Made by a program: the position numbers and the translations under genes
From: Sphingobacterium spiritivorum ATCC 33861
Lineage (GTDB): Bacteria; Bacteroidota; Bacteroidia; Sphingobacteriales; Sphingobacteriaceae
Direction: 5' to 3'
Assembly: GCF_000143765.1 (NCBI RefSeq)
Contig: NZ_GL379772.1
Coordinates: forward strand, 1 to 64,000
Length of the DNA: 64,000 bases
The notes under the pieces: model-generated
Seen by the model: only the letters and a program-made list of their open reading frames with translations
The model's database searches: none
Told to the model about the DNA's origin: nothing
Part shown: positions 19,819 through 36,500 of the stretch, in pieces
Layout: every line of letters begins with the position of its first letter
Numbering within the stretch: the first letter of the stretch is position 1

Positions 19819-20886
19819 CTATTTTTGGTTTATCCTGTTTAGTTGTTGCTCAATTTCAGAAATACGTTTATTTTGTTGCTGCACCTGATTTTCTTTTTCG
19901 ATAAGATGTAGTGTCAATTCCTCCACTTTCTTCAGCAAAAGTTTGTTCATTTCGCCTAATGACACACCTTCCTTTTCGGCTTCCGCAGCCTTTGGCATGT
20001 CCGGCAGATGACCATGTTTTTCGATGTAAGCCCGAAGCTCGGAAAGCGATGTCAATTCATAGTCTTTCTTAAATACATAATCCGGCCAGTTGGCCGCTTC
20101 TACCTTTACTTCCTGTGAACGAATCTTTCCATTTACTGCCAGATCATATTCTCGTGGTGTGCTGGTCTTGATACCAACCTTTCCGGAGAAATACGCTATG
20201 TCAGCCTGACTCTTATTGATCCCCAACAGCGCTTCTATAGTCGGTTCATTGCCATCTACAACCTCTGCTCTGGGACCATAGAAATACTGACGATCATTTG
20301 AATTAGGATCGTAGTAGAGATACGTACGGTGAAAGGTTGTGGTAACATAGTCAGGAAACTTAAAATCCTCTATTTCGGCTACTCTGGCTCCTGTAACACC
20401 ATCGTATATACCTCCGTAATATGTTGTTGACGGATCAGCACTTCCATGAATATAGGCGACTAACAGATACCATTTATCTAATTCGGGCAAATCTCCCTGC
20501 CAGAAATAAGGATTAGTAACAAGTAAATTATCAAGGTTATTAACATTCGCACAGCCAAAGTAGCTGTAACCATCTGTGGAATTCGTTTTCTTCAGCCAGA
20601 TAGTCAAGCGGTAAATTTTCCGACGATCGATTGCAAAAGGTTTTGAATCCCATCCCGCATTAGCATGACTTGCTCCTCCAACACCTTTCCACAACATAAC
20701 GCGATTACCATAAGGTCCGATACCCCATTCCCGGATATTATTAGCCGGGTCTCCATTAACCTCCAAAAAAGCAGTACTTCCGGTACCCGGCACCCAATCA
20801 TTGAGATTTACCAGGTTTTGGGCCTGCATATTAGTGCTAAGCAGCATTAAGACCACAAAACACGAGAAGTAAAGTGTATTTTTCAT
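19819..20886 (-). CDS. Secreted fibre-like paralog F1 (jelly-roll head)
   Basis: A 355-residue protein: signal peptide ending MQAQ (residue 23), a head of about 190 residues, a neck (VGIKTSTPREYDLAVNGKIR), the shared module from NWPDYVFKK (residue 266) to LGEMNKLLLKKVEELTL, and a Gln-rich coiled coil to the end. The head (NDWVPGTGSTAFLE, EWGIGPYGNRVMLWKG, WYLLVAYIHGSADPS) is strand-rich, like carbohydrate-binding jelly rolls of phage fibres, and is shared with F2 and F6. It is the last fibre gene before the RHS pair, with a 3-bp gap. Ligand binding is inferred; no catalytic motif is visible. Confidence 0.75.
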   Translation of the reverse strand: MKNTLYFSCFVVLMLLSTNMQAQNLVNLNDWVPGTGSTAFLEVNGDPANNIREWGIGPYGNRVMLWKGVGGASHANAGWDSKPFAIDRRKIYRLTIWLKKTNSTDGYSYFGCANVNNLDNLLVTNPYFWQGDLPELDKWYLLVAYIHGSADPSTTYYGGIYDGVTGARVAEIEDFKFPDYVTTTFHRTYLYYDPNSNDRQYFYGPRAEVVDGNEPTIEALLGINKSQADIAYFSGKVGIKTSTPREYDLAVNGKIRSQEVKVEAANWPDYVFKKDYELTSLSELRAYIEKHGHLPDMPKAAEAEKEGVSLGEMNKLLLKKVEELTLHLIEKENQVQQQNKRISEIEQQLNRINQK

Positions 20887-20889
20887 ATT

Positions 20890-21942
20890 TTATTTTTTAA
20901 GAAGTAATAACTGGTTGATCTGCGCTTGTTGCGCTTCATTATTCTTTTCCATTTTCAGGATATACAGTGTCAATTCCTCCACTTTCTTCAGCAGAAGCTT
21001 ATTCATTTCACCTAATGACACACCTTCCTTTTCAGCTTCCGCAGCCTTTGGCATGTCCGGCAGATGACCATGTTCTTCAATGTAAGCCCGAAGCTCAGAA
21101 AGCGATGTCAATTCATAGTCTTTCTTAAATACATAATCCGGCCAATTGGCCGCTTCTACCTTTACTTCCTGTGAACGGATCTTTCCATTTACTGCCAGAT
21201 CATATTCTCGTGGTGTGCTGGTCTTGATACCAACCTTTCCGGAGAAATACGCTACCTCAGCCTGACTCTTATTGATCCCCAACAGCGCTTCTATAGTTGG
21301 TTCGTTGCCATCAACAACCTCTGCTCTGGGACCATAGAAATACTGACGATCATTTGGATTAGGATCGTAATGAAGATAAGTTCTGTGTAAAGTTGTGGTG
21401 GCTAAATCAGGAAACTTAAAATCCTGTATTTCAGCTACCCTGGCTCCTGTAACCCCGTCATATATACCTCCGTAATACGTTGTAGACGGATCAGCACTTC
21501 CATGAATATAGCCAACGACCAGATACCATTTGTCTAGTTCGGGTAAATCTCCATACCAGAAATAAGGATTAGCATCAGGTACATTATCAAGTGTATTTAC
21601 ATTCCTACACCCAAAGTAACTGTGACCATCTGTTGAATTCGTTTTCTTCAGCCAGATAGTAAAGCGGTACATTTTCCGATGATCGATTTCAAAAGATTTA
21701 GAACTCCATCCGGCATTGGCATCATTTATTCCTCCAACACCCTTCCACAACATAACGCGATTACCATAAGGTCCGATACCCCATTCCCGGATACTATTAG
21801 CCGGCTCTCCATGAGCCTCCAAAAAAGCAGTACTTCCGGTACCCTGAACCCAATCACTGAGATTTATCAGGTTTTGGGCCTGGATATTAGTACTGAGTAG
21901 CATTAAGACTACAAAACAAGAGAGGTAAAGTGTGATTTTCAT
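20890..21942 (-). CDS. Secreted fibre-like paralog F2 (jelly-roll head)
   Basis: A 350-residue near-duplicate of F1: the same leader (ending IQAQ), the same head family (LSDWVQGTGSTAFLE, GIGPYGNRVMLWKGVGG) and an almost identical neck and module. Differences cluster in head loops (for example NVNTLDNVPDANPYFW against NVNNLDNLLVTNPYFW in F1), while the C-terminal coiled coil ends differently (KMEKNNEAQQAQINQLLLLK). It is 3 bp from F1 and F3. This looks like a recent tandem duplication followed by change in exposed loops. Confidence 0.75.
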   Translation of the reverse strand: MKITLYLSCFVVLMLLSTNIQAQNLINLSDWVQGTGSTAFLEAHGEPANSIREWGIGPYGNRVMLWKGVGGINDANAGWSSKSFEIDHRKMYRFTIWLKKTNSTDGHSYFGCRNVNTLDNVPDANPYFWYGDLPELDKWYLVVGYIHGSADPSTTYYGGIYDGVTGARVAEIQDFKFPDLATTTLHRTYLHYDPNPNDRQYFYGPRAEVVDGNEPTIEALLGINKSQAEVAYFSGKVGIKTSTPREYDLAVNGKIRSQEVKVEAANWPDYVFKKDYELTSLSELRAYIEEHGHLPDMPKAAEAEKEGVSLGEMNKLLLKKVEELTLYILKMEKNNEAQQAQINQLLLLKK

Positions 21943-21945
21943 ATT

Positions 21946-22923
21946 CTATTTTTTCTGAATTAATAATTGGTTGATCTGTGCTTGTTGCACTTCATTATTC
22001 TTTTGCATCTGCAAGATATACAGTGTCATTTCCTCCACCTTCTTGAGCAGAAGTTTGTTCATTTCTCCCAGAGAAACTCCCTCCTTTTCGGCTTCTGCAG
22101 CCTTTGGCATATCCGGCAGATGGCCATGTTCTTCGATGTAAGACTGAAGCTCAGAGAGTGGCTTTAGTTCATAGTCCTTCTTAAATACATAATCCGGCCA
22201 GTTGGCTGCTTCGACCTTGATTTCCTTTGCACGGATATTGCCGTTGACAGCTAATCGCTCCGTCGGAGTAGCAGTACCAATACCGGTATACCCATTGGCT
22301 AAAACAGTAACCTTGGAAGCTCCGTTTGTAATAATGGAAAAAGGATGATTAGAATGTGTACCGACAATACCGCCTGCAACCGCTCCATAATATCCACTTT
22401 CGTGCGACCACAAACCACTCTTCACCACTCCTGTAGTCACCAGCATCTTGGCATGCCCTTCTCCGTTGACCTGAAATGCTCTGTCCCAACCCTCGTTATT
22501 ATCCACGGAAGTCGTTCCTAAAAGCAAATGGCCATTTTCATCCAGGCGCATCCGTTCAGTATTGTTATTCGTATTAAAGGATATAAATCCACCTGTCACA
22601 GATACTCCTCTATGGAAATTGATAGCATTATTGATCTGCCCGTAAAAACTATGGATAAGGGAAAAGCTCTTACCTCCAATCACATTTGTTCCTGTACCCT
22701 GGACTCCAAGAAAAGTTCCTGATCCGGTCTCATCTCCTTCTTCCAATCGGCCAAATACAGTACCCAATCGGTCATTATGAATGTAAGGAGCCGCTACATC
22801 CAATATAGCTTTTGGAGAGGTTGTTCCTATACCAACCGGACCTGAAGCCGGGAAGGTATTAGTCTGTGCATTTGTAATGTTTACGCATAATAGTAAACTC
22901 ACTAAAAAATTTAAGATTTTCAC
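21946..22923 (-). CDS. Secreted fibre-like paralog F3
   Basis: A 325-residue protein: signal peptide ending TNAQ, then NTFPASGPVGIGTTSPKAIL, a beta-repeat head with two internal GIGT neck units, and the shared module (YVFKKDYELKPLSEL onward) with a coiled-coil end nearly the same as F2. The middle segment (SGYYGAVAGGIVGTHSNHPF) is shared with F15 and F16, although the first half is of the F4 type, so the gene looks like a mosaic. Repeated GIGT-x-SP/TP motifs are typical of trimeric fibre shafts in phage and Bacteroidota surface proteins. Confidence 0.75.
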   Translation of the reverse strand: MKILNFLVSLLLCVNITNAQTNTFPASGPVGIGTTSPKAILDVAAPYIHNDRLGTVFGRLEEGDETGSGTFLGVQGTGTNVIGGKSFSLIHSFYGQINNAINFHRGVSVTGGFISFNTNNNTERMRLDENGHLLLGTTSVDNNEGWDRAFQVNGEGHAKMLVTTGVVKSGLWSHESGYYGAVAGGIVGTHSNHPFSIITNGASKVTVLANGYTGIGTATPTERLAVNGNIRAKEIKVEAANWPDYVFKKDYELKPLSELQSYIEEHGHLPDMPKAAEAEKEGVSLGEMNKLLLKKVEEMTLYILQMQKNNEVQQAQINQLLIQKK

Positions 22924-22931
22924 AGTTGATT

Positions 22932-23756
22932 TTATTTATTGTCAATTACTTTTTGGAGAAGAAGCTCTAATTCCTTTTGCTTATTCTCAATATCCTTTAG
23001 CTTTCTATTGGATATTTTTATTTCGTTATCCTTTTCTATAAGATGTAATGTCAGTTCCTCCACTTTCTTTAGCAGAAGTTTGTTCATTTCGCCTAATGAT
23101 ACTCCTTCCTTTTCGGCTTCCGCAGCCTTTGGCATGTCCGGCAGATGACCATATTCTTTGATGTAGGCATCAAGATCAGCGAGTGGCTTTAATTCATAGT
23201 CCTTTTTAAATACATAATCCGGCCAGTTAGCAGCTTCGACTTTGATTTCTTTTGCACGGATATGACCGTTGACGGAAAGAAGTTCACCTCTGGATACAGT
23301 TGTTCCCAATAACAATTTTCCTTCTGTATCCAGACGCATACGTTCAGTATTATTATCGGTATTAAAGGTTAAAAAACCTCCTGTTGCATCGTCCCCTCTT
23401 AGAAAATTAATAGAACTGTTAATGTATCCATAAAAGGAGTGTTCAAGAGCAAAACTTTTCCATCCATACTGCTCACTGTATTGGGTACCGTATCCACGCA
23501 CGCCCAGAAAGGTGCCCTCTCCTGTAACATCACCTTCAAGCAATCGACCTAAAACCGTCCCCAATCGGCCATTATGAATATAAGGAGCAGCTATATCCAA
23601 TATCGCTTTTGGAGAGGTTGTTCCTATTCCGACCGGACCTGAAGCCGGAAAGGTATTAGTCTGTGCAAATCCCTGTGCAGACATTGCAGCATAATACAGT
23701 GTAGCTATTACTCCGGTTCTGGTTAACTTTCCTAAGATAGTTTTCATTCTTTTCAA
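22932..23756 (-). CDS. Secreted fibre-like paralog F4
   Basis: A 274-residue protein with a signal peptide ending GFAQ and the same opening as F3 (NTFPASGPVGIGTTSPKAIL, then AAPYIHNGRLGTVLGRL). The head is shorter than in F3 because it passes directly from NTERMRLDTEGKLLLGTT to the neck (LLSVNGHIRAKEIKVEAANW) without the shared middle segment. The C-terminal coiled coil is long and charged (IEKDNEIKISNRKLKDIENK). No enzymatic motif. Confidence 0.75.
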   Translation of the reverse strand: MKRMKTILGKLTRTGVIATLYYAAMSAQGFAQTNTFPASGPVGIGTTSPKAILDIAAPYIHNGRLGTVLGRLLEGDVTGEGTFLGVRGYGTQYSEQYGWKSFALEHSFYGYINSSINFLRGDDATGGFLTFNTDNNTERMRLDTEGKLLLGTTVSRGELLSVNGHIRAKEIKVEAANWPDYVFKKDYELKPLADLDAYIKEYGHLPDMPKAAEAEKEGVSLGEMNKLLLKKVEELTLHLIEKDNEIKISNRKLKDIENKQKELELLLQKVIDNK

Positions 23757-23758
23757 GT

Positions 23759-24490
23759 TTAGTTTTTCTTTAATGTGTCTATTTGTTTTTGCAGATCAAT
23801 AATATACAGTGTCAGTTCCTCCACTTTCTTCAGCAGAAGTTTGTTCATTTCTCCCAGAGAAACTCCTTCCTTTTCGGCTTCCGCAGCCTCTGGCATGTCC
23901 GGCAGATGACCATGTTCTTTGATATAGGCATTAAGCTCAGCGAGTGGCTTTAATTCATAGTCCCTTTTAAATACATAGTCCGGCCAGTTGGCTGCTTCTA
24001 CTTTGATTTCTTTTGCACGGATATTGCCGTTGACGGCTAATCTTTCTGTAGGGCTGGCAGTACCAATACCTATCCGGTCCTGCAGATCTATAACTAAAGG
24101 CGATGTATTTGTCAACGAATTATAAATACCAAAGTTTGTATTGTCATTATACAGTCTATGATAGGCATTATTAGGTTTATACAGGTATAAGGAAGATGAA
24201 TTATCATCAAAAGGAAGGATCTGCAGATAGCGTAAAGTTATCAGATTTCGTGTCTCCAGTCCTAAAGTATGTAAAGTCCCGTTGCTTTCCACGCTCATCG
24301 TTCCCCAATTCCATTCTCCGTTTATTTTTGGTGAAATATAAAGAGTAGTTCTACCGTCATCAGGTGTATGAAAAATCCATGAATTACTTCCGGTTGACAC
24401 CAGATCCTCTCCTGTCTGCGCCTGACAAAGTTGGCTCAGAAAAATAATTGTAAGACTGCTTATCAAGCATTTTTTATTGAATATTGACAT
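23759..24490 (-). CDS. Secreted fibre-like paralog F5 (unique head)
   Basis: A 243-residue protein: signal peptide ending CQAQ, then a compact head of about 115 residues (STGSNSWIFHTPDDGRTTLY, INGEWNWGTMSVESNGTLHT) not shared with any other member. Neck IGIGTASPTERLAVNGNIRA and module YVFKRDYELKPLAELNAYIK follow. NSWIFHTPDDGRTTLY resembles the opening of tail-fibre heads in Bacteroidota phages, an impression rather than a search result. It ends in a short coiled coil (YIIDLQKQIDTLKKN). Confidence 0.72.
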   Translation of the reverse strand: MSIFNKKCLISSLTIIFLSQLCQAQTGEDLVSTGSNSWIFHTPDDGRTTLYISPKINGEWNWGTMSVESNGTLHTLGLETRNLITLRYLQILPFDDNSSSLYLYKPNNAYHRLYNDNTNFGIYNSLTNTSPLVIDLQDRIGIGTASPTERLAVNGNIRAKEIKVEAANWPDYVFKRDYELKPLAELNAYIKEHGHLPDMPEAAEAEKEGVSLGEMNKLLLKKVEELTLYIIDLQKQIDTLKKN

Positions 24491-24500
24491 AATAAAGAGA

Positions 24501-25568
24501 TTATTTGGTATAATTTACTTTTGACTTCAATAGTTGTATTTGCTCAGCCTGTTCACTGATCTGTTTATTTGCTTCTATCATATATAGTGTCAGTTCCTCG
24601 ACTTTCTTAAGCAGCAGTTTATTCATCTCGCCCAGCGATATTCCTTCCTTTTCAGCTATCTCTGCTTTCGGTATATCCGGAAGATGGCCATACTGCTTAA
24701 TATGATTTTCCAAGCCTTCCAGAGACTGCAATTTATACTGAGGCTTGAATACATAATCCGGCCAGTTGGCGGCTTCTACTTTGACTTCCTGCGAACGAAT
24801 CTTACCGTTGACAGCAAGATCGTACTCCCGCGGATTATTGGTCCTGACACCTACCTTACCTGAGAAATATGCAACTTCACTCTGTCCCTTATTTATGCTC
24901 AGCAGTGCTTCTATAGTCGGTTCATTACCATCTACTACCTCCAGTCTCGGAGCATAAAAATATTGACGGTCGTTAGTATTGGGATCATAATAGAGGTATG
25001 TACGATGATTGGTATATGTGCTGCCGGGTAAAAATTTGAAATCAACCATATCTATCACTTTTTCTCCTGTAGTACCATCGTAAATTGCTCCAAAATGTTG
25101 GGTGGAAGGATCGTCCGCAGCGTGAATGTATCCGACCAGCAGATACCAGCGGTCCAGTACCGGAAGACTTCCATGATAGAAATAGGGATTATTATCCGGC
25201 ACATTATCGAGTCCCGCAACAGCTACACAACCAAAATAAGTAGTTCCACCATTTGAATTTGTTTTTTTTATCCAGACAGAAGAACGATACATTTTCTTAT
25301 GATCTATTGCTACGGGATTACTGTTCCAGCCTCCGTCGTCGTTAGCATTTCCTTCGGGAGTCGCTTTCCAAAGTATGACCCGATTAGCATGTGGTCCTAC
25401 TCCCCATTCTCTTGTATTTTCGATTGTCTGACCATTCTGATTAAACATTCCTGCAGAACCTTCTCCTGCTTTCCAGTCATTAAGGTCCAATAGATTCTGT
25501 GCATAACATAGTGACGATGACCCAGACAGCAAGAGTCCAAGTAAGTAGTATTTTATGTGCATTTTCAT
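24501..25568 (-). CDS. Secreted fibre-like paralog F6 (jelly-roll head)
   Basis: A 355-residue protein of the F1/F2 head type but more diverged (LNDWKAGEGSAGMFNQNG, EWGVGPHANRVILWKATPEG, WYLLVGYIHAADDPSTQHFG). The neck is VGVRTNNPREYDLAVNGKIR and the module is the most divergent of the first subfamily (YVFKPQYKLQSLEGLENHIK, HLPDIPKAEIAEKEGISLGE). The leader is hydrophobic, ends CYAQ and is not a lipobox. Its separation from F1 and F2 by three unrelated heads shows that head types are interspersed rather than duplicated only in blocks. Confidence 0.75.
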   Translation of the reverse strand: MKMHIKYYLLGLLLSGSSSLCYAQNLLDLNDWKAGEGSAGMFNQNGQTIENTREWGVGPHANRVILWKATPEGNANDDGGWNSNPVAIDHKKMYRSSVWIKKTNSNGGTTYFGCVAVAGLDNVPDNNPYFYHGSLPVLDRWYLLVGYIHAADDPSTQHFGAIYDGTTGEKVIDMVDFKFLPGSTYTNHRTYLYYDPNTNDRQYFYAPRLEVVDGNEPTIEALLSINKGQSEVAYFSGKVGVRTNNPREYDLAVNGKIRSQEVKVEAANWPDYVFKPQYKLQSLEGLENHIKQYGHLPDIPKAEIAEKEGISLGEMNKLLLKKVEELTLYMIEANKQISEQAEQIQLLKSKVNYTK

Positions 25569-25569
25569 G

Positions 25570-26319
25570 TTATTTCATATTATTTTTAAGTTCATTTATC
25601 TCCTGACGAATTTCTTTTAATTCCCTGATTTCCTTATCCTTTTCTATTAGATGTAAAGTCAGCTCCTCTATTTTCTTTAGTAACAGTTTATTCATTTCTC
25701 CAACAGACAGACCATCTTCAGCGATCTTCTGCGCCGATGGAATATCCGGAAGGTGTTTATTGGTTTTAATAAATGCTTCTATTTCAGGGAGGGATCTCAG
25801 CAGATAATCTTCTTCAAACACGTAGTCCGGCCAGTTAGCTGTCTCGACTTTAATTTCCTTTGCACGGATATTGCCGTTAACAGCCAGTTTCTCTGAAGGT
25901 GTGGTAATACCGATTCCTAAATTACCCTCTTCATTCAATACCATTTTAGGAATACTCCAATTTGTAGAATTAATCTTACTGGTAAAGAATTTAATAGAGT
26001 GGTTCTCTGTGGAAATTGCCCCCAGTTGTCTGAAATGTCCGGAGTAAATATTCAGATCATTTCCATATGTTCTTATCTGTGCATCATAAGTATTTTCTAT
26101 CCCTAATTCTAAACTCGGATAATTGCTATCTGATCCAATACGCAACCCTACAGTCCCATTAATTCCCCCCGCTCCCAGATTAATATTTAAAGGTGCCAGC
26201 GGTGAAAGTGTACCAATTCCGGCATAGCCGGTAGTTGGAAACGTATTTGATTGAGCCATTACCCATGAAGCACTTGTACTGAGAAGTGCAGTACACAAAA
26301 TTCTAATTCTTTTTTTCAT
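25570..26319 (-). CDS. Secreted fibre-like paralog F7
   Basis: A 249-residue protein: signal peptide ending VMAQ, then NTFPTTGYAGIGTLSPLAPL and a short beta-repeat head (LRIGSDSNYPSLELGIENTY, QIRTYGNDLNIYSGHF). Neck LGIGITTPSEKLAVNGNIRA. From here upward in the array the shared module switches to the second subfamily (YVFEEDYLLRSLPEIEAFIK, KHLPDIPSAQKIAEDGLSVG). Its first 17 bases overlap the end of F8, indicating translational coupling. Confidence 0.75.
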   Translation of the reverse strand: MKKRIRILCTALLSTSASWVMAQSNTFPTTGYAGIGTLSPLAPLNINLGAGGINGTVGLRIGSDSNYPSLELGIENTYDAQIRTYGNDLNIYSGHFRQLGAISTENHSIKFFTSKINSTNWSIPKMVLNEEGNLGIGITTPSEKLAVNGNIRAKEIKVETANWPDYVFEEDYLLRSLPEIEAFIKTNKHLPDIPSAQKIAEDGLSVGEMNKLLLKKIEELTLHLIEKDKEIRELKEIRQEINELKNNMK

Positions 26320-27256
26320 AATTTTCTATTTTATCCAATCGCTTAAGAACCATATCCAACTGTTGCTGTTGCTTCTTAATAATACAATCTTTTTCAATCA
26401 GATACAGTGTCAACTCTTCAATCTTTCTTATCATGAGCTTGTTTATTTCTCCAACAGACAGGCCTTCTTCAGCAATTTTTTGAGCGGATGGTACCTCCGG
26501 AAGGTGTTTATTGGCTTTAATAAATGCTTCTATTTCAGGGAGGGGTGTGAGCTGATAATCTTCTTCAAACACATAATCCGGCCAGTTGGCCGCTTCGACC
26601 TTGATTTCTTTTGCACGGATATTGCCGTTAACTTCTAACTTTTCTGCAGGATTCCGTTTTCCAAGGCCCACATTTCCTTTAAAATAACTCGACTGATCTG
26701 ACAGAACATTCAGAGATTCACTGAATGTATTTCCATTTCGCATTACATAATCTTCTTCATTGGATTTTATATCAAAAACCTTCCCTCCGATTGCAGTAAC
26801 GTAAGGATACGCATGCTGGACCCCGTCATATACAACAGGTACTACTGAAGCGGTAGCGTTATAATAGTAATTTGTATTTCCCCGCATCCACAATACGATT
26901 TCATTTACTTCTCCCTGAAGTGTAGCATCTGCCCATCCTGCAATAAATGACTGGTAGATACTGTTGTTTTTTGAAGTACCTAATTTTACATCTAGAAAAT
27001 TAGACTCATGCCCACCGTTACTTACATGATAAACAATAGTTGCCATCACAGAACCTTTCCACAGCCCGCCCTCGTGGATATTACTTCTTCCTAAATTCAG
27101 CACTGTGGGTTTATGCTGATCAAAATTTCCATCTTTCCATGTAACAGGGTAAAATTTGGTTATGTCTCCGCCTATTGTTATCATTCCGGAAGACTGCCCC
27201 CATGTAACCATGAACGTACACAGGAACAAAAACAACAAAATTAATCTGGACAGCAT
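26303..27256 (-). CDS. Secreted fibre-like paralog F8
   Basis: A 317-residue protein with a signal peptide ending TWGQ and a head of about 170 residues (GGDITKFYPVTWKDGNFDQH, VLNLGRSNIHEGGLWKGSVM, AGWADATLQGEVNEIVLWMR) that is shared, with strong divergence, by F12. This head reads as a single compact jelly-roll-like domain. The neck VGLGKRNPAEKLEVNGNIRA departs slightly from the usual GIGT form, as it does in F12. It ends in a coiled coil with KKQQQQLDMVLKRLDKIENY. Confidence 0.75.
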   Translation of the reverse strand: MLSRLILLFLFLCTFMVTWGQSSGMITIGGDITKFYPVTWKDGNFDQHKPTVLNLGRSNIHEGGLWKGSVMATIVYHVSNGGHESNFLDVKLGTSKNNSIYQSFIAGWADATLQGEVNEIVLWMRGNTNYYYNATASVVPVVYDGVQHAYPYVTAIGGKVFDIKSNEEDYVMRNGNTFSESLNVLSDQSSYFKGNVGLGKRNPAEKLEVNGNIRAKEIKVEAANWPDYVFEEDYQLTPLPEIEAFIKANKHLPEVPSAQKIAEEGLSVGEINKLMIRKIEELTLYLIEKDCIIKKQQQQLDMVLKRLDKIENYEKKN

Positions 27257-27264
27257 AAGATATT

Positions 27265-28269: not shown

Positions 28270-28738
28270 TTTTAAATAATGTTGAGCAGATCGAAGGATT
28301 CCTCTTAGGTCTGTAAAATTTCTATTTATCTGAATAAAAAACGTATACCTGGATAAAATACCGTAATGAAGAAATTAAAAATTGATCTGCAATTCCAATA
28401 ATAAAGATTAACAGCCCTAATATAAGAAATTTTTTAAAACGAAAAGCAATTTATTATTTTCTTTATCATGAATAATCAAACAAGAACCAAGTATTAAGTC
28501 TGTGTTAGTTATTTATTAAATAAATTGACATAAGGAGATTGCAGGTATTCTTTTTCTTAGCAATGTATAGATCCGGGCTTTTATTTCCGGATCCTTAAAG
28601 TAATTATATTTTATAGATATGCTATACGAAACAGGCAGCAATAGATAAAGGATAGAATTTCTGTTATGGGAACAGTAAAGGCAGTAACGTAGAACTCTTA
28701 AAAAGAATGAAATTAAAAGTAATATAATTCTAATACAT
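28270..28738. other. Intergenic region between the two fibre blocks
   Basis: This 469-base region is downstream of F10 and upstream of F9. It contains the 55-bp element at 28370-28424 and, nearer F10, a hairpin with GATCCGG/CCGGATC arms at 28570-28593 that could end the proximal block. I see no gene. The hairpin has no clear T-tract on the minus strand, so its terminator role is uncertain. Confidence 0.5.
28370..28424 (-). promoter_or_regulatory. 55-bp conserved upstream element, copy 1
   Basis: This is an exact copy of 36217-36271; weaker similarity continues for about 20 bases beyond it. Read on the minus strand it contains TATTATTG, one mismatch from the Bacteroidota -7 consensus TAnnTTTG, with TTTC 22 bases ahead. 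It lies about 100 bases before the F9 start, as copy 2 does before F17. It is probably the promoter or control site of each block. Confidence 0.6.
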
Positions 28739-29500
28739 CTATTTATTCAGAAAAGTCTTAAACTGGACTTTTAAAGCATTCAATTCTTCCTGTTGCGTCT
28801 GCAGCTGCTGCTCCTTTTCAATCAGATGTAAAGTCAGTTCTTCGATCTTTTTGAGCAGGTCAATCTGCAAATCCCCTACATTAATACCGTCTCTCCGCAT
28901 TTCTACTGCGGAAGGAATACCAGGCAGATGTCCGTGTTCTTTAATAAATCGCTGTGTAGTCTTCAGATCAGGTAATTTATATCCCTCCTCAAAAACGTAA
29001 TCTGCCGTTTTTGTGGTTTCGACACGCAGTTCATGAGCTCTGACAGCACCCACTACATCGAGCCTGTAGTCAGGACTACTGGTACCTATTCCGATTTTTT
29101 CCTCAATAAATAAATTTTTGGCTTTCCAATCTGTATCTTTATTATTGGCATTTACAGAAGTATAAAAGGTATGCCACGCCGTCCATCCTCCGTTATCGTA
29201 CTTCCCCATCCGGATCTGCGGAGCGTTACCTCCATAATAATTTGAGTACGGTACATACAGTTGAAAAGCTGCCCCATCCTGATCATCCCAGTACCCGCCT
29301 CCGGCAAGCACTGTTCCGTAATCAGGAAAGCCTTCAGCTGCACTAACAAATGATAGCTGCAGTTTTTTATTAAATACTTTAGGTTCGACGTTGGCGTTCC
29401 AGACATAATTACCGGAAGAATTTAATACGGTCTGCGCTTCAATATGTTTCCATAAAAACAAGGAACAGACAGACATTATAATATATTTCATCTTTTTCAT
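28739..29500 (-). CDS. Secreted fibre-like paralog F10 (most divergent module)
   Basis: A 253-residue protein, last gene of the proximal block. Signal peptide ending IEAQ; the head (GNYVWNANVEPKVFNKKLQL, GGYWDDQDGAAFQLYVPYSN, MGKYDNGGWTAWHTFYTS) belongs to the knob-like group of F9 and F17. The shared module has drifted the furthest in the array: AVRAHELRVETTKTADYVFE, HLPGIPSAVEMRRDGINVGD, with LGEMNKL replaced by VGDLQIDLL. The coiled-coil tail (QTQQEELNALKVQFKTFLNK) is nevertheless almost that of F13, which suggests exchange of 3' ends. Confidence 0.74.
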   Translation of the reverse strand: MKKMKYIIMSVCSLFLWKHIEAQTVLNSSGNYVWNANVEPKVFNKKLQLSFVSAAEGFPDYGTVLAGGGYWDDQDGAAFQLYVPYSNYYGGNAPQIRMGKYDNGGWTAWHTFYTSVNANNKDTDWKAKNLFIEEKIGIGTSSPDYRLDVVGAVRAHELRVETTKTADYVFEEGYKLPDLKTTQRFIKEHGHLPGIPSAVEMRRDGINVGDLQIDLLKKIEELTLHLIEKEQQLQTQQEELNALKVQFKTFLNK

Positions 29501-29501
29501 T

Positions 29502-30416
29502 TTATTTATCCTTTATCAGCAGCTTATTCAGTCTTTGTATTTCTTTATCTTTTTCAATTAAATAAAGTGTCAGCTCTTCGATTTTTTTCATCATAAGCTT
29601 ATTCATCTCCCCCAGGGAAAGTCCCTCCTCTTCTATCTCTCTGGCAGACGGTACATCCGGAAGGTGCTTATTAGTCTTGATAAAGGTTTCTACTTCTGAG
29701 AGGGATTTTAGCTTATACTCTTCTTCAAATATATAATCCGGCCAATTGTTAGTCTCCACTTTGATCTCTTTAGCGCGGATATTGCCATTGACGGATAACC
29801 TTTCTGTCGGATCTTCAGTGCCAATACCGACATTTCCGTTGGTCAGAATAGTTAAATGTCCGGTATGAAAATGCCTTATACTAAATTTTGATGCTTGTTC
29901 TTCCGAAAACTTGAGCAGGGTCCATTGACCATACCCTGTACCCGATGTTCCGGGTATTGCTCCTAAGGCAATACTGGCTGAACCGTATTGAGAACTTGGA
30001 AGACGCAAATTTTCATTAAAATTATTACCATTCTTATTATAAATGATGGCTGTACCATTAACTTCCAATTCCGTACTCGGATTCAAAGTTCCCACTCCAA
30101 CTTTACCATTCGTCTCTAACAATACCCGACTCCAGGGGGTAGCCGGATTATTATTTGTCTTGCGGAAATATAAGTACTGATCAAAAAAACTTCCCGAAAA
30201 CTGCATAGCATGATTATTATCCGGACGAGAATGCCTGACATCCAGAAGGTGCCACCAATTTGTTGCTCCTGTAGGAAAATTGACGGGTTCATATGCTTCA
30301 AAAAAACCTGAAGTTGCTCCGGCATCTCCCCGCAAACCTGCATCATTGCGGATCTGCGACCAGACAATGACCGGGAATAAACTCATGACCATTATAAGTA
30401 TTGCTAATCTTTTCAT
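29502..30416 (-). CDS. Secreted fibre-like paralog F11 (knob-like head)
   Basis: A 304-residue protein with a signal peptide ending VWSQ. Its head (NDAGLRGDAGATSGFFEAYE, WWHLLDVRHSRPDNNHAMQF, RKTNNNPATPWSRVLLETNG) is closely shared with F13 and ends in the aromatic WSRVL motif of knob-type fibre domains. A second short segment (LRLPSSQYGSASIALGAIPG) differs from F13. The neck VGIGTEDPTERLSVNGNIRA and second-subfamily module follow. Confidence 0.76.
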   Translation of the reverse strand: MKRLAILIMVMSLFPVIVWSQIRNDAGLRGDAGATSGFFEAYEPVNFPTGATNWWHLLDVRHSRPDNNHAMQFSGSFFDQYLYFRKTNNNPATPWSRVLLETNGKVGVGTLNPSTELEVNGTAIIYNKNGNNFNENLRLPSSQYGSASIALGAIPGTSGTGYGQWTLLKFSEEQASKFSIRHFHTGHLTILTNGNVGIGTEDPTERLSVNGNIRAKEIKVETNNWPDYIFEEEYKLKSLSEVETFIKTNKHLPDVPSAREIEEEGLSLGEMNKLMMKKIEELTLYLIEKDKEIQRLNKLLIKDK

Positions 30417-30418
30417 TA

Positions 30419-31381
30419 TTATTTATTCTTTAGTTGATTGATTTCGCTAGCTTGCTGATCTACTTTTTCTATGAGCATATGTACACGCTGTGACAGTATT
30501 TCATGCCGCTTTTCCTTCTCTATCAGATGTAAAGTCAGTTCTTCAATCTTTTTCATCATCAGTTTGTTCATCTCCCCCAGAGAAAGTCCATCCTCTTCTA
30601 TCTCTCTGGCAGACGGTACCTCCGGAAGATGCTTATTGGCTTTGATAAAAGTTTCTACTTCAGCCAGAGGAGTTAGTTTATAATCTTCTTCAAATACATA
30701 GTCCGGCCAGTTAGCTGTTTCGACCTTGATTTCCTTTGCACGAATATTGCCGTTTACCTCCAGTTTTTCGGTAGCATCCCGTTTACCGATCCCGATATTT
30801 CCGGCAAAATAATTAGTCGCCTGTCCCATAACATGAATAACTCCATCGGTATTGGACCCTCTAGAATTCACATAATCTTCCACTCTGGTCTTGAACGTAT
30901 GTGCGGCCCCGTTTTCCTGTTGGTAAGGTAACATATTTTGAACATTATCATATATTCGGGGGGATTGGGCAGCATTAGAGACATAAAAATATGTCGAAGC
31001 TCCCTTTAACCATATAATAAATTCCCTATTGCCGCTTGCCAGAGTTGCATCATGATAACCGCCAATAAAGGGTACAATCTCGGCATAACCATGCCTGCCC
31101 TGATAGATATCTGTTTCAATAAAATGGGAACCATGTCCCCAAAGCATATTATGTATACGAAAACGTGCGATCATCGAACCCCTCCACCACTCATCATAAT
31201 GGGTATCTGACCGTCCGATTTCGATTACTGTAGCCACGCTGTTTCCCCAGTTATTATCCTGAAATATTACCGGATAGAATTTATCCTTATCTCCGTTTAC
31301 ATAAAATGAGGTAGTAGCAACCTGTGCTTCTGCCAAAGTGTTCAAAACACTTATCCATAAGATTAGAAGTAATGCTCTCAT
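30419..31381 (-). CDS. Secreted fibre-like paralog F12
   Basis: A 320-residue protein with a signal peptide ending AEAQ and the F8 type of head (NGDKDKFYPVIFQDNNWGNS, VIEIGRSDTHYDEWWRGSMI, GGYHDATLASGNREFIIWLK). The neck IGIGKRDATEKLEVNGNIRA also matches F8 in its KR form, so head and neck have travelled together. The C-terminal tail (RHEILSQRVHMLIEKVDQQA) is a clear heptad coiled coil. The gene is 2 bp from F11. Confidence 0.75.
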   Translation of the reverse strand: MRALLLILWISVLNTLAEAQVATTSFYVNGDKDKFYPVIFQDNNWGNSVATVIEIGRSDTHYDEWWRGSMIARFRIHNMLWGHGSHFIETDIYQGRHGYAEIVPFIGGYHDATLASGNREFIIWLKGASTYFYVSNAAQSPRIYDNVQNMLPYQQENGAAHTFKTRVEDYVNSRGSNTDGVIHVMGQATNYFAGNIGIGKRDATEKLEVNGNIRAKEIKVETANWPDYVFEEDYKLTPLAEVETFIKANKHLPEVPSAREIEEDGLSLGEMNKLMMKKIEELTLHLIEKEKRHEILSQRVHMLIEKVDQQASEINQLKNK

Positions 31382-31412
31382 ATTTACTTTTTTTGTACAG
31401 ATTTTTAAAAAT

Positions 31413-32363
31413 CTATTTATTTTGAAAAGTCCTGAACTGTGTCTTTAACGTATTCAGCTCTTCCTGTTGCGTCTGCAGTTGCTTGTCTTTCTCTATCAGA
31501 TGCAAAGTCAGTTCTTCAATCTTTTTCATCATAAGTTTGTTCATCTCCCCCAGAGAAAGTCCATCCTCTTCTATCTCTCTGGCAGACGGTACCTCCGGAA
31601 GATGCTTATTGGCTTTGATAAAAGTTTCTACTTCAGCCAGAGGAGTTAGTTTATAATCTTCTTCAAATACATAGTCCGGCCAGTTGTTTGTCTCCACTTT
31701 GATTTCTCTGGCACGGATATTACCGTTGACAGCTAATTTATCCCGCGGAGTAGTTATACCTATTCCTACATTCCCGTTATCCATAATGGTAAACCTGTTG
31801 GTGCAAAGGCCGCCTGTAGTACACCCTATTGCGTCGTATGCCCAGAACTGCAGACTATTACCATATACACCAGCCATGTTAAATATTCTCCAGTACATGG
31901 CCACCCCATTGGCAGTTTTTGCAGGATTGCCAAGAGTAAGAGTTCCTCCGATATCCGGATCAGAAACAGTAGATATTAATGAACCATCTGCAGAGATATG
32001 TCCTTTTACATCCAACTTTTGCTGTGGATTATCTGTACCTATTCCCACTTTACCATTCGTCTCTAACAATACCCGACTCCAGGGGGTAGCCGGATTATTA
32101 TCTGTCTTGCGAAAGTATAGTTGCTGATCACCAAAGCTTCCCGAAAACTGCATGGCATAATTATTAGCCGGATTACTGTGCCTGACATCCAGCAGGTGCC
32201 ACCAATTTGTCGCTCCTGTTGGAAAATTGACGGGTTCATTTGCATCAAAAAAACCTGAAGTCGCTCCGGCATCACCCCGCAGCCCCGCATCATTTCTGCT
32301 CTGTGACCATACGAGTATTGGAAATAAGCATAAGGCGATTAAAAGACCGGCAAATCTTTTCAT
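31413..32363 (-). CDS. Secreted fibre-like paralog F13 (knob-like head)
   Basis: A 316-residue protein with the F11 head (WWHLLDVRHSNPANNYAMQF, RKTDNNPATPWSRVLLETNG) followed by its own second segment (NPAKTANGVAMYWRIFNMAG, FWAYDAIGCTTGGLCTNRFT) between two GIG necks. The two Cys residues in GCTTGGLC are unusual for the array. The module is of the second subfamily and the tail matches F10. Its ATG overlaps the stop of F14 by 4 bases. Confidence 0.75.
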   Translation of the reverse strand: MKRFAGLLIALCLFPILVWSQSRNDAGLRGDAGATSGFFDANEPVNFPTGATNWWHLLDVRHSNPANNYAMQFSGSFGDQQLYFRKTDNNPATPWSRVLLETNGKVGIGTDNPQQKLDVKGHISADGSLISTVSDPDIGGTLTLGNPAKTANGVAMYWRIFNMAGVYGNSLQFWAYDAIGCTTGGLCTNRFTIMDNGNVGIGITTPRDKLAVNGNIRAREIKVETNNWPDYVFEEDYKLTPLAEVETFIKANKHLPEVPSAREIEEDGLSLGEMNKLMMKKIEELTLHLIEKDKQLQTQQEELNTLKTQFRTFQNK

Positions 32364-33322
32364 TTTCTTTTAGTTTTAAGTTGGCTGATTTCGTTGGCTT
32401 GTTGACTTACTCTTTCTTTCAGCATATTTACATCCTGCAAAAGTGTTTGTTGAGATGTGTTCTGTTGTTGGAGTTGCCTGTCTTTCTCAATCAGATGTAA
32501 AGTCAGTTCTTCTATCTTTTTCATCATAAGTTTGTTCATCTCCCCCAGAGAAAGTCCATCCTCTTCTATCTCTCTGGCAGACGGTACCTCCGGAAGATGC
32601 TTATTGGCTTTGATAAAAGTCTCTACTTCAGCCAGAGGAGTTAGTTTATAATCTTCTTCAAATACATAGTCCGGCCAGTTGTTTGTCTCCACTTTGATTT
32701 CTCTGGCACGGATATTACCGTTGACTGACAGCCGTTCCGTTGGTGTAGTTGTACCGATGCCAACATTACCATTTGTATTCCAGACTCCATTTTCAGGAAA
32801 CCTCACATTTCCATTAAAAGAGTTTCTATATTCCAACTGTACTATCTCATTGCTACTTAATGCTTCATCGGCCGTGGCCCAACTTTTATAATATGCAGGA
32901 GCATTATTAAAACCATGCGTAAACGCATCAACGAAAAAACGTAGAAAATAGTTTTTATCATCTATAAAAATCACCACCTTTCCGTTTTCCTGAGCTAAGA
33001 ATATTCTTGGTGTGTATGAGCCTGCGGTAGATACAGAAGAAGCCCACACTTTAGGTAAGTTCGCATCATTATTAAAAATGTAAAACACAAGAGTTAAATC
33101 CATAACTTCACCATTTCCATAGTTGTACCCCTGAATTTTAACAGTGGGCATATCAACCTGATGCATAAAAGGAATATTGGTTTTTATTTTCACACCATGT
33201 GTCGGGACACCATTATAAGAATATTCGACTAAGTTGCGATACACCTGTGCCTGTATAGTTAATTTTGTACCTGCCAGACAGATCATTAATAGTATACAAA
33301 AAGCCGTTTTTGTATTTTTCAT
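32360..33322 (-). CDS. Secreted fibre-like paralog F14 (unique head)
   Basis: A 320-residue protein with a leader ending IQAQ and a long single-domain head not found in other members (YRNLVEYSYNGVPTHGVKIK, DLTLVFYIFNNDANLPKVWA, KVVIFIDDKNYFLRFFVDAF). The strand pattern suggests a jelly-roll or C1q-like fold; I have no family name for it. The neck VGIGTTTPTERLSVNGNIRA and module are nearly identical at protein level to those of F13 and F15. The tail is a long coiled coil with LQDVNMLKERVSQQANEISQ. Confidence 0.74.
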   Translation of the reverse strand: MKNTKTAFCILLMICLAGTKLTIQAQVYRNLVEYSYNGVPTHGVKIKTNIPFMHQVDMPTVKIQGYNYGNGEVMDLTLVFYIFNNDANLPKVWASSVSTAGSYTPRIFLAQENGKVVIFIDDKNYFLRFFVDAFTHGFNNAPAYYKSWATADEALSSNEIVQLEYRNSFNGNVRFPENGVWNTNGNVGIGTTTPTERLSVNGNIRAREIKVETNNWPDYVFEEDYKLTPLAEVETFIKANKHLPEVPSAREIEEDGLSLGEMNKLMMKKIEELTLHLIEKDRQLQQQNTSQQTLLQDVNMLKERVSQQANEISQLKTKRK

Positions 33323-33323
33323 C

Positions 33324-34262
33324 TTACTTTCGCATTAAGTTTTCTTTTAGCTGTTGTATTTCTTCCTGAAGCGCAACAATTTCTTGTTTTATTCCTTTTA
33401 AGTCCCTGATCTCTTTATCCTTTTCAATCAGATGCAAAGTCAGCTCTTCGATTTTTTTCATCATCAGCTTGTTCATCTCTCCCACAGATAATCCTTCCTC
33501 TTCTATCTCTTTGGCAGACGGTACATCCGGAAGATGCTTATTAGCTTTGATAAAAATTTCTACTTCTGTCAGAGACTTTAGTTTATAATCTTCTTCAAAT
33601 ACATAATCTGGCCAGTTGTTAGTCTCCACTTTGATTTCTCTGGCACGGATATTACCGTTGACTGACAGCCGTTCCGTTGGAGTAGTTGTGCCGATGCCCG
33701 TGTAACCATTGGATAAAATGGTGACCTTAGAAACTCCGTTTGTAATAATAGAAAATGGGTGATTGGTATGTGTACCAACCATACCTCCTGCAGCTGCACC
33801 ATAATATCCGCTGTTGTGGGACCACATACCAGTTCTCACTGCATTAGTAGTTACTAATAACTTAGCATGATCAGTTCCGTGAACCTGAAGTGCTTTTTCC
33901 CATCCTTCATTATTTTCAACTGTTGTTATCCCTATACCAATATTACCATCCGGCTGAAAGATCATAAACGGACGATCATAATTCTTACCGATATAAGAAT
34001 AAGCCTGAAAGGACTTTCCTGTTATATCATAATTACCCATAGTTCCTAGTTGAATAAAGGATTCTGAATCATCATTATTGGATATCCTGTATCCCCTTGC
34101 CCATCCTCCGGATATCCCGGTTCCAAAATCTGCCAGTAGATTAACACCATATGCAGGTCCATCAAAACCAATCTGTACCCGATTATCCTGCTGTGCAAAA
34201 CCTATATGTGTAAGAAGCATACTTAATGCTATTCCAGTTACTTTAATAATTTTATTTTTCAT
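33324..34262 (-). CDS. Secreted fibre-like paralog F15, intact sister of the amber-stopped gene
   Basis: A 312-residue protein with a signal peptide ending GFAQ. The head starts VQIGFDGPAYGVNLLADFG, continues through FQPDGNIGIGITTVENNEGW, and then carries the SGYYGAAAGGMVGTHTNHPF segment shared with F3. It is the closest relative of F16 (34259-35176) and gives the reference for the lost Trp codon there: TGG at the position where F16 has TAG. Its ATG overlaps the last bases of F16. Confidence 0.76.
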   Translation of the reverse strand: MKNKIIKVTGIALSMLLTHIGFAQQDNRVQIGFDGPAYGVNLLADFGTGISGGWARGYRISNNDDSESFIQLGTMGNYDITGKSFQAYSYIGKNYDRPFMIFQPDGNIGIGITTVENNEGWEKALQVHGTDHAKLLVTTNAVRTGMWSHNSGYYGAAAGGMVGTHTNHPFSIITNGVSKVTILSNGYTGIGTTTPTERLSVNGNIRAREIKVETNNWPDYVFEEDYKLKSLTEVEIFIKANKHLPDVPSAKEIEEEGLSVGEMNKLMMKKIEELTLHLIEKDKEIRDLKGIKQEIVALQEEIQQLKENLMRK

Positions 34263-35176
34263 TGCTTTTCTTCAATTTTTTTAAGTCTTTCCGCCATATC
34301 GGCTAATTGTTGTTCATATAGTTTCTGGGTTTTATCCTTCTCAATCAGATGCAAAGTCAGCTCTTCGATTTTTTTCATCATCAGCTTGTTCATCTCCCCC
34401 AGAGAAAGTCCATCCTCTTCTATCTCTCTGGCAGACGGTACATCCGGAAGATGCTTATTGGCTTTGATAAAAGTTTCTACTTCTTTCAGAGACTTTAGTT
34501 TATAATCTTCTTCAAATACATATTCCGGCCAGTTGGTAGTCTCCACTTTGATTTCCCTGGCACGGATATTACCGTTGACTGACAGCCGTTCCGTTGGTGT
34601 AGTTGTACCGATGCCCGTGTAACCATTGGATAAAACAGTGACCTTAGAAACTCCGTTTGTAATAATAGAAAATGGGTGATTGGTATGTGTACCAACCATA
34701 CCTCCTGCAGCCGCTCCATAATATCCGCTGTTGTGGGACCACATACCAGTTCTCACTGCATTAGTAGTTACCAATAACTTGGCATGATCAGTTCCGTGAA
34801 TCTGAAATGCCTTTTCCTATCCTTCGCTATTCTCAACAGTTCTTGTTCCTACACCAATATTTCCATCCGGCTGGAAGACCATATATTCGCGGGAAAATCC
34901 GCCTCCGATATATGAATACCGCTGAGTGGAAGTACCATCTGAATAATGGTCTCCTGTTGTTGCCAACTGGATAAATGATGCTGAACCGTCATGATTAGAA
35001 ATACTGTACCCTCTTACCCATGGTCCGGAATAAGTACCGAAATTGACCAATAAATTAGTTCCATATGCAGGTGCATCCAAACCAATCTGTACCCTATAAT
35101 CCTGTTGTGCAGAGGCCATGTGTGTAAAAAGTAGACTTAGAGCTATTCCTGTTACTTTAATAATTTTACTTTTCAT
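34259..35176 (-). pseudogene. Fibre-like paralog F16 interrupted by one amber stop
   Basis: The frame runs from the ATG at 35176 to the stop at 34259, 305 sense positions, broken only by TAG at 34819-34817 (codon 120). The sister gene F15 reads ENNEGWEKALQVH at this place; here it is ENSEG-stop-EKA, so a single G-to-A change explains it. Everything after the stop is intact and well conserved, including neck, module and coiled coil (KTQKLYEQQLADMAERLKKI), so the lesion is recent, or the stop is read through. The last ~70 bases are the same as the end of F17. It overlaps both neighbours by 4 bases. Confidence 0.85.
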
Positions 35177-36126
35177 TGCTTTTCTTCAATTTTTTTAAGT
35201 CTTTCCGCCATATCGGCTAATTGTTGTTCATATAGTTTCTGCGTTTTTTCCTTCTCAATCAGATGCAAAGTCAACTCTTCGATTTTTTTCATCATCAGCT
35301 TGTTCATCTCTCCCACAGATAATCCTTCCTCTTCTATCTCTTTGGCAGACGGTACATCCGGAAGATGCTTATTGGCTTTGATAAAAGTCTCTACTTCTGC
35401 AAGAGGTGTTAGTTTATACTCTTCTTCAAATACATAGTCCGGCCAGTTGGTAGTCTCCACTTTGATTTCCCTGGCACGGATATTACCGTTGACAGCTAAT
35501 TTATCCTGCGGAGTAGCTGTACCAATTCCTACATTCCCATTTGCCTTGACGGAAACCAGATTAACCCAACTAATACCCGTTGTTTTATTCCATATCTGCC
35601 ATGCATCATCTACAGGTCTGACTCCATAAGCAAAATATCCTGACTGAATATCATCTGATCCACTATAGGAAGAAAATATATCCATATTGGGACTATCATC
35701 TGTTCTTATAATTGAAATATAGTCTTTATCATTTGTTTGATTTTTCAAAGTCAAAAATGTTTGCGGATTGCTGGTTCCAATTCCAACATAGCCATTAGCG
35801 TCTGCCGTAACCATCTTACGCCATGCTTCCCAACCGCTATCATATCCGGACCTTATATAAAGATCATTATCAGTAAAAGCGAGTTCGTGAGCTTTACCTC
35901 CGGAATCATCCCACCAACCTCTCATGCCCAAAACAGTAGAATAATTCCCGCTTACATTTAGTCCAATATCTGTATTGTACTTAAAAGAGGGTTTGAGTTT
36001 AAAATTATAGTGAACCGGAGTGGATGCTATACCCCTACTATCCTCCATAATTAATTGCTGCTGACTATACACCCCGTTTATGGCCATACCTAGCAGCGCA
36101 AAACAAATGATTCTTTTCATTTTCAA
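35173..36126 (-). CDS. Secreted fibre-like paralog F17, first gene of the proximal block
   Basis: A 317-residue protein with a signal peptide ending VYSQ and the F9-type opening head (NFKLKPSFKYNTDIGLNVSG, WDDSGGKAHELAFTDNDLYI, WEAWRKMV). It then has its own segment (NDKDYISIIRTDDSPNMDIF, YGVRPVDDAWQIWNKTTGIS) before the neck VGIGTATPQDKLAVNGNIRA. As the promoter-proximal gene it shares both the opening head and the 55-bp upstream element with F9, which argues that a whole block was duplicated. Confidence 0.76.
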   Translation of the reverse strand: MKMKRIICFALLGMAINGVYSQQQLIMEDSRGIASTPVHYNFKLKPSFKYNTDIGLNVSGNYSTVLGMRGWWDDSGGKAHELAFTDNDLYIRSGYDSGWEAWRKMVTADANGYVGIGTSNPQTFLTLKNQTNDKDYISIIRTDDSPNMDIFSSYSGSDDIQSGYFAYGVRPVDDAWQIWNKTTGISWVNLVSVKANGNVGIGTATPQDKLAVNGNIRAREIKVETTNWPDYVFEEEYKLTPLAEVETFIKANKHLPDVPSAKEIEEEGLSVGEMNKLMMKKIEELTLHLIEKEKTQKLYEQQLADMAERLKKIEEKQ

Positions 36127-36500
36127 ATGATATTTAACGGATCTGAGAATTTCATGGGGAGTAAATGGTTTCTATCATGTATAAGAAAATAGAAATGCCC
36201 ATAACTACCCACTGTGAGAAATTAAAAATTGATCTGCAATTCCAATAATAAAGATTAACAGCCCTAATATATGAAATATTTTAAATCAAAAGAAATTTTT
36301 TACACCACCCATCATATTTAAGAACAAAACCGTAACAAGCTAGCTTTTTGTTAGTTAACTGTTAAATAATTTGACACAAGAACAACAACTGAAAACCATA
36401 ACGGAAAAATCTATTCAGATTAACCGGTACCTGGATTATAATACTTAAGCATTTTTTAAGCACATGAATCCGGTTATATTATCGCAGATTTTTCCATAAC
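36127..36500. other. Intergenic region upstream of the fibre array
   Basis: A 374-base AT-rich stretch between F17 and the terminator of the efflux operon. It holds the second copy of the 55-bp element at 36217-36271. A further patch near 36348-36380 (GTTAGTTAACTGTTAAATAA) resembles one near 28504 in the other upstream region. No gene was seen. Confidence 0.5.
36217..36271 (-). promoter_or_regulatory. 55-bp conserved upstream element, copy 2
   Basis: This matches 28370-28424 base for base. It is placed about 90 bases before the F17 ATG and contains the same minus-strand TATTATTG with TTTC 22 bases upstream. It is the likely promoter or control element of the proximal fibre block. Confidence 0.6.

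Follow-up and report, generated by a model that had tools for sequence, protein, structure and literature searches.

Tandem genes for putative secreted fibre proteins beside RHS toxin genes and a type II secretion-like cluster in Sphingobacterium spiritivorum

The described systems closest to the locus reported here are the mosaic fibre adhesins of Bdellovibrio, the RHS polymorphic toxins and the type II secretion systems (T2SS) of Bacteroidota. The locus lies in a stretch of 64,000 nucleotides of Sphingobacterium spiritivorum ATCC 33861 (contig NZ_GL379772.1, positions 1 to 64,000; hereafter the window), in which 17 consecutive gene loci on the minus strand, at 19819-36126, encode fibre-like proteins and are followed by genes of a two-chain RHS toxin. 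The MAT fibres of Bdellovibrio form a described repertoire of mosaic trimeric adhesins, typically of about 1,000 amino acids (aa), with a conserved N-terminal domain of about 130 residues and variable C-terminal tips (PMC10769870; this and the other papers are cited from part of their text). Tail-fibre repeats were listed by Zhang et al. among the stalks of polymorphic toxins (PMC3482391).

For the secretion machinery, Denise et al. (2019) grouped the T2SS of Bacteroidota with type IVa pili (T4aP) and considered it a possibly novel secretion system derived from them (PMC6668835). In Cytophaga hutchinsonii, T2SS mutants use cellulose, and adhere to it, less well; Wang et al. (2017) judged the changed proteins unlikely to be direct T2SS substrates and left the direct substrates open (PMC5553014). 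They also record T2SS clusters in F. johnsoniae and P. heparinus. The available part of that account names no proven direct substrate and mentions neither fibre arrays nor RHS genes. In Flavobacterium psychrophilum CC-ST10, a cluster of about 35 kb combines two oppositely oriented blocks of T2S genes with genes for two ABC-toxin-like proteins, an OmpH chaperone and a putative adhesin (PMC5808330). It resembles the present loci in combining T2S, toxin-like, adhesin and OmpH genes, the adhesin being likened by its description, but the account concerns one species and one adhesin and describes, in the part available, no shared module, array or wider conservation. The grouping of fibre, RHS and T2SS genes is thus partly in print, in a single paper, and our search of the open-access literature, seen in part, yielded no paper on shared-module fibre arrays at such loci. 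The statement in the original prediction, made from the sequence alone, that no system of this layout had been described was too strong, given the MAT fibres and the F. psychrophilum cluster.

On balance, and with modest confidence, we favour the reading that the array encodes secreted trimeric fibre adhesins which, together with the adjacent two-chain RHS toxin, are cargo of the T4aP-derived T2SS of Bacteroidota. The gene linkage is observed directly; export of the products as cargo is its most likely interpretation. A T2SS-like cluster at 3938-8692, a third partner overlooked in the original prediction, is taken as the key to the locus.

That cluster is partial and lies on the plus strand. 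It starts with 'lip', a T2SS-linked lipoprotein-like gene (3938-4297), and continues with genes for a GspC/PilP-like inner-membrane protein (4298-4801; all matches below cut-off), a MORN-repeat-like protein, morn (4767-5420; below cut-off), a large pilin-like protein, K (5423-6679), which was used as bait, a minor pseudopilin-like protein (6672-7037; matches below cut-off), a minor pseudopilin (7030-7530; N_methyl 2.2e-5, over cut-off) and a GspF-like inner-membrane platform protein (7538-8692; T2SSF 3e-43). Several of these assignments combine sub-cut-off matches with a gene order conserved in relatives. GspF and pseudopilins, components of the Bacteroidota T2SS, thus occur at 6672-8692, with T2SSF and N_methyl over the Pfam cut-offs and the second pseudopilin below. 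Secretin, ATPase, major pseudopilin and prepilin peptidase were undetected in the window and were found in relatives, for example at loci L051, L002 and L168. The window and its relatives share with the C. hutchinsonii T2SS the same kinds of component, namely D, E, F, G, O, L/M/C-like proteins and minor pseudopilins (PMC5553014).

The RHS genes lie between this cluster and the array, on the minus strand. R2, the RHS N-terminal partner (16603-19815), starts 3 bp after the array; it has a hydrophobic start, is SpvB-like by eye and gives a sub-cut-off RHS repeat match in Pfam. A 'TcB-like' label for R2 was dropped, since just one of six R2-type proteins matched SpvB, and that at E 0.0082, short of the cut-off. 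R1 (13163-16594) carries DUF6443, an RHS core (TIGR03696, 1.7e-16) and an M91-like tip (7.8e-5; 23.5 bits against a cut-off of 25). In PDB R1 matches two teneurin-like RHS shells, and for R2 there was no match. A small lipoprotein-like gene (12717-13160) is, by position, a candidate R1 immunity gene; it is followed by a displaced RHS core end (1.4e-5, below cut-off) with another C-terminal tip (11654-12703) and by a small gene with a signal-peptide-like start (10989-11654), whose position makes it a candidate immunity gene for the displaced tip. The R1 region thus holds the RHS core, C-terminal tip and displaced tip that characterise RHS polymorphic toxins, with which it shares also the small downstream genes (PMC3482391); it differs from them in being split into two chains, the second bearing DUF6443, and in following a fibre array. 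In a Balneola relative, an open reading frame (ORF) of 2,163 residues beside fibre genes (L069:11792-18280) matches R2 and continues with R1-type DUF6443 from residue 955, and since it joins both parts it supports the view that R2 and R1 form one unit. A second R2-type gene lies at 363-3590 on the minus strand, with an R1-matching frame overlapping its end and running off the start of the window.

The array itself had been predicted as 17 consecutive genes on one strand, most of them 1-10 bp apart or overlapping, and both count and spacing held. Sixteen of the 17 loci are intact, one being broken by an in-frame stop (34259-34774 plus 34817-35176); genes are numbered g01-g18, with g02 and g03 as the two frames of the interrupted gene. 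Two gaps occur, one of 31 bp at 31382-31412 and one at 28270-28738, between g09 and g10. A leader upstream of g01 (36217-36270, minus strand) recurs upstream of g10 (28370-28423, minus strand); each of two probes has exactly two copies in the window, with no other match there within three mismatches, and shuffles average 0.07 and 0.00 matches. The larger gap and the exactly duplicated leader suggest that the array consists of two blocks, each probably a transcription unit, a refinement of the original prediction. A promoter scan of gap 28270-28738 gave one site where 3.5 were expected.

The intact proteins span 243-355 aa, and the architecture predicted for each of them, a signal-peptide-like start, a variable head, a neck of phage-fibre type and a constant C-terminal module, stood except that some members have a degenerate GIGT neck, for example GIKTSTPREYDLAVNG in 19819-20886 and 20890-21942. 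Signal-peptide-like starts were assigned by eye and by a hydrophobicity measure. The constant C-terminal part comprises the neck, a WPDYVF...HLPxxPsA...GEMNKLLLKKIEELTL module and a long helix; the module is common to all 17 loci, with 25 invariant alignment columns. In 378 module-bearing ORFs from the window and the 77 module-picked loci described below, no more than 30 residues lie beyond the profile match, which itself takes in part of the final helix.

The proposed phage-type fibre architecture was borne out by the best matches of the neck among PDB profiles and folds, which are trimeric fibres, and the best solved structures for the array profile are Bdellovibrio MAT fibres. Trimer modelling and a fold search of the heads had been suggested, and two of the 17 members were modelled, both as monomers ending in a helix of about 45 residues. 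In the g10 model (mean pLDDT 65), residues within 135-231, in the neck region, were placed on MAT beta-helix domains; query-normalised TM-scores of this monomer against fibres are low, about 0.12-0.34, and are taken as a direction only. In the g18 model (mean pLDDT 78), residues 20-218 of the head were placed on the beta-sandwich modules CBM4-2, CBM61 and CBM16, and this carbohydrate-binding-module (CBM) fold is in itself no demonstration of function. The fibre reading of the array proteins is well supported, and their fold relatives suggest that they are trimeric.

The likeness to the MAT superfamily lies in a repertoire of fibre proteins with signal-peptide-like starts and mosaic, putatively adhesive ends and in the neck, which finds its best PDB matches there by both sequence and fold. 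The array differs in its tandem genes and short proteins; moreover, its polarity is opposite, with variable N-terminal heads and a C-terminal module constant in 17 of 17, and MAT membership was therefore rejected. The array may nevertheless work like the MAT fibres. The part of the MAT paper available to us has no mention of operon, tandem or RHS (PMC10769870). Fibres with a Peptidase S74 or intramolecular-chaperone domain (T5 L-shaped fibre, K1F endosialidase, MYRF) likewise have a C-terminal domain and helix after a GIGT-type neck, and MYRF matched the array profile at E 0.069. Membership of this family was rejected, given that none of the 10 members scanned, out of 17, matched PF13884 at E <= 1 and that an hhalign comparison of the module with three S74 sequences reached a probability of 7%, at E 0.005 and over 44 columns near the final helix; the SDxxxK catalytic motif is absent from the aligned module of all 17. 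No T9SS (type IX secretion system) C-terminal domain occurred among Pfam matches (E <= 1, 10 of 17 members) or NCBIfam matches (E <= 0.1, 3 of 17), and no model of either collection exceeded its cut-off in the same members. Weak Pfam matches (helicase-associated, AAA_23 and similar, phage T4 gp36) were disregarded as below cut-offs.

The linkage between fibre, RHS and T2SS genes was surveyed in three samples, picked by module, by R2 and by K, which overlap in several genomes despite their separate criteria. Single-sequence queries were used to find T2SS and RHS genes, so that all such counts are lower bounds. The profile search recommended in the original prediction revealed that arrays recur and are recurrently linked to RHS genes. 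Among 77 module-picked loci, the final detection set recognised T2SS and/or RHS genes in 50 (T2SS in 24, RHS in 42), PorP/SprF alone in one and none of these in 26. Detection of RHS genes is incomplete; large genes after the arrays of L028 and L052, the latter counted among the 26, are RHS-like by eye with no Pfam match. Because the 77 loci had been picked by module, their R2 adjacency (23 of 31 R2 genes) is biased, and the two other samples were made to replace it. R2 picking gave 22 match rows from 12 of 101 genomes, one gene accounting for two of the rows. In 11 of the 21 loci fetched a fibre gene on the same strand lies no more than 800 bp upstream of R2, one locus having only about 470 bp of upstream sequence. 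K picking gave one match in each of 31 of 151 genomes. Within about 10 kb of K, where the contig allows, fibre genes occur in 13 of 31 loci, R1 or R2 in 21 and either in 24; without the three seed genomes the counts are 12, 19 and 21 of 28. The same detection applied to 20 arbitrary regions of 19.9 kb, at round-number positions of our choosing on the K-bearing contigs of 20 K-picked genomes, showed fibre or RHS genes in none. Linkage to the secretion machine in the family sampled is strong.

A second family sample, around a Flavobacterium genome, had the module in 59 of 149 genomes. Ten regions from eight of these, chosen by eye for dense module matches or for flanking an 11-13 kb gap, all contain T2SS-cluster or RHS genes, which illustrates the linkage and is not a rate. 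In one genome three neighbouring regions read <m <m <L <D <E <O <G, fibres, R2, R1, fibres, lip, C, K, p2, F. At phylum scale, 10 genomes had both secretin and module, 13 secretin only, 35 module only and 189 neither (p 0.003); the module occurs in 10 of 23 secretin-bearing genomes vs 35 of 224 others, with p 0.016 when the two seeds are left out. In seven of the 10 genomes with both, module and secretin matches among those listed come within 20 kb of each other on the same contig.

Several points weigh against the cargo reading. Linkage alone does not make a protein cargo, the T2SS locus is partial within the window, the trimeric state is proposed for proteins modelled as monomers and residues 225-268 of the g18 neck fall below pLDDT 50. 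The association of module and machine is weaker across the phylum than in the family sampled. Seven of the 31 K loci have neither a fibre nor an RHS gene in the stretch fetched, eight of the 31 K-bearing genomes lack a module match and, in the first family sample, K is missing from 15 of the 38 genomes that carry the module. Nor did T2SSE exceed its cut-off in any of these 15, or in 15 genomes with neither module nor K, as it did in four of four K-bearing controls. Eight regions from five K-less genomes showed no T2SS or RHS gene and one of them had PorP/SprF; two of the eight, L214 and L215, coincide with loci L068 and L050, and L050, which overlaps, has a weak RHS fragment (L050:824-1699, 5.3e-10) about 4 kb before its array. 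The K-less module genomes and the weaker phylum association imply that the module is not exclusive to the machine and has a second context, perhaps one related to T9SS.

These observations lend some substance to the view that the fibres are general surface adhesins which share genomic islands with RHS and T2SS genes and have no mechanistic dependence on them. The 15 machine-less genomes speak for it, as does PorP/SprF, a T9SS partner, beside some arrays (PF11751 3.5e-76 in L050; also L022 and L060). We nevertheless regard it as unlikely, since fibre genes that lie within the T2SS operon or at its ends, in different genera and again in the second family sample, make a more specific pattern than island sharing, and since the median number of module matches per module-bearing genome, among the matches listed with at most 28 candidates scored in each genome, is at least 7 with K vs at least 1 without.

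The original prediction had also considered the fibres as delivery tips of the RHS toxin. In such an arrangement they would be interchangeable targeting tips whose C-terminal module docks on the R2/R1 shell while the heads choose the target. The 3-bp spacing between array and R2, the upstream fibre gene in 11 of 21 R2-picked loci and the presence of R1 or R2 at 21 of 31 K-picked loci are in keeping with this arrangement. Yet eight of the 77 module-picked loci have T2SS genes and no detected RHS, 26 have neither and one has PorP/SprF alone, and in 10 of the 21 R2-picked loci no fibre gene was seen in the sequence fetched. No fusion of module and RHS, or domain common to both, was seen, although there was no systematic search for one. 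Nothing found shows the delivery role, and we keep it as a distinctly improbable rival.

A further rival would place the fibres as exchangeable tip adhesins on a T4aP-like filament, in a role like that of PilY1, instead of releasing them freely as cargo. The branching of the Bacteroidota system with T4aP rather than T2SS (PMC6668835) is in keeping with it, and in L008, L021, L167 and L176 fibre genes stand between morn and K of the pseudopilin half-operon. On the other side, no pilus is described for the Bacteroidota system in the portions of the literature examined, the resemblance to PilY1 is putative and the fibre starts are, by eye, of Sec type and not prepilin type; we consider such tips decidedly doubtful.

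That the array is a prophage or tailocin remnant is very improbable and was rejected: its neck does resemble tail families of PHROGs, with values down to 9.7e-9 in a scan of 10 of the 17 members, but g04 gave no tblastn match in 50,697 phage records, the module occurs in just 24 IMG/VR loci vs at least 541 matching stretches in genome contigs, the proteins have signal-peptide-like starts and the module is under purifying selection. The absence of phage genes noted in the original prediction agrees with these searches, and Pfam detected no phage structural gene among the 26 window genes scanned, all of them before 39.7 kb. One of the 24 IMG/VR loci, L129, also shows RHS-type frames. In the IMG/VR contigs L147 and L146 the module lies in very long open frames of 3,051 and 1,810 codons.

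Purifying selection on the module is evident from pN values far below pS, both in 15 adjacent pairs (median pS 0.46, pN 0.05) and in 79 pairs more than four genes apart (median pS 0.76, pN 0.20). The heads fall, in our own grouping of a BLAST table, into about nine classes, several of which are common to two or three genes. All array genes are on the minus strand. In block 1, g01 (35173-36126, class B) comes first, followed by the interrupted g02/g03 (34259-35176, class C), g04 (33324-34262, class C), g05 (32360-33322, class E), g06 (31413-32363, class H), g07 (30419-31381, class D), g08 (29502-30416, class H) and, last, g09 (28739-29500), whose module diverges most (50-58% DNA identity to the rest). 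Block 2 starts with g10 (27265-28269, class B), whose modelled neck resembles the Bdellovibrio MAT beta-helix, and continues with g11 (26303-27256, class D), g12 (25570-26319, class F), g13 (24501-25568, class A; 60% identical to g18 over 346 residues), g14 (23759-24490, class G), g15 (22932-23756, class F), g16 (21946-22923), g17 (20890-21942, class A; 84% identical to g18) and g18 (19819-20886, class A), the member with the CBM-like head. The head of g16 is apparently a mosaic of g15 and g04 types, residues 19-138 matching g15 (76%) and residues 125-308, running into the module, matching g04 (64%). Recurrence of head classes and this mosaic point to genes that duplicate and swap heads while the base stays fixed. 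The best named relatives of the array proteins are from S. spiritivorum. There, for example, the homologues of g05 and g15 are eight locus-tag steps apart vs 10 genes in the window, which suggests, assuming one gene per step, that array content differs between strains.

Other genes recur around the arrays. Fibre genes followed by an OmpH/Skp-like chaperone occur at L006:11278-18086, L030:3898-6002 and L033:12830-19405 (PF03938 1.7e-25 in L033, the others by eye); in all three a protein of about 210 aa follows the chaperone, and L006 and L033 also encode one of about 1,800 aa with no Pfam match, possibly an alternative cargo set. PorP/SprF genes lie at L050:13050-14063 (the same as L215:9867-10880), L060:10522-11535 and L022:5882-6889, directly following the array in L050 and L060. 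Response-regulator-like genes beside the T2SS half-operon, at L021:2932-3795 (LytTR 1.5e-17), L027:5191-6120 and L038:10800-11576 (by eye), are possible array regulators. In the window, small genes at 8785-10502, which separate the T2SS cluster from the displaced RHS tip, include one with DUF1493 (5.6e-9) and may be orphan immunity genes.

Cargo of T2SS leaves through the secretin, pushed by the pseudopilus. If the array products are such cargo, they would first be exported by Sec, as their signal-peptide-like starts indicate, and in the periplasm the constant C-terminal part would drive their folding into trimers with a beta-helix neck, by analogy with related folds. The folded trimers and the RHS pair would then exit through the secretin, as gene linkage and the general behaviour of these machines suggest. 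Once outside, the interchangeable N-terminal heads, at least one class of which has a predicted CBM fold, would bind glycans or surfaces, and the pattern of similarity among the genes suggests that new members of the repertoire arise by tandem duplication, with heads exchanged over the conserved base.

As a tentative extension, the Bacteroidota T2SS could be a distinct system dedicated to fibre adhesins and two-chain RHS toxins, with the C-terminal module as its docking or export signal, equivalent to the C-terminal domain of T9SS cargo. New heads would then become cargo by recombining onto the module, and the 15 machine-less module genomes would represent its reuse by another exporter. The array proteins belong to a very large uncharacterised family, the array profile matching 6,488 of 7,990 scored candidates at E <= 1e-3, and their recurrent linkage, with RHS pairs, to the Bacteroidota T2SS provides this system with concrete candidate cargo and a possible tag.

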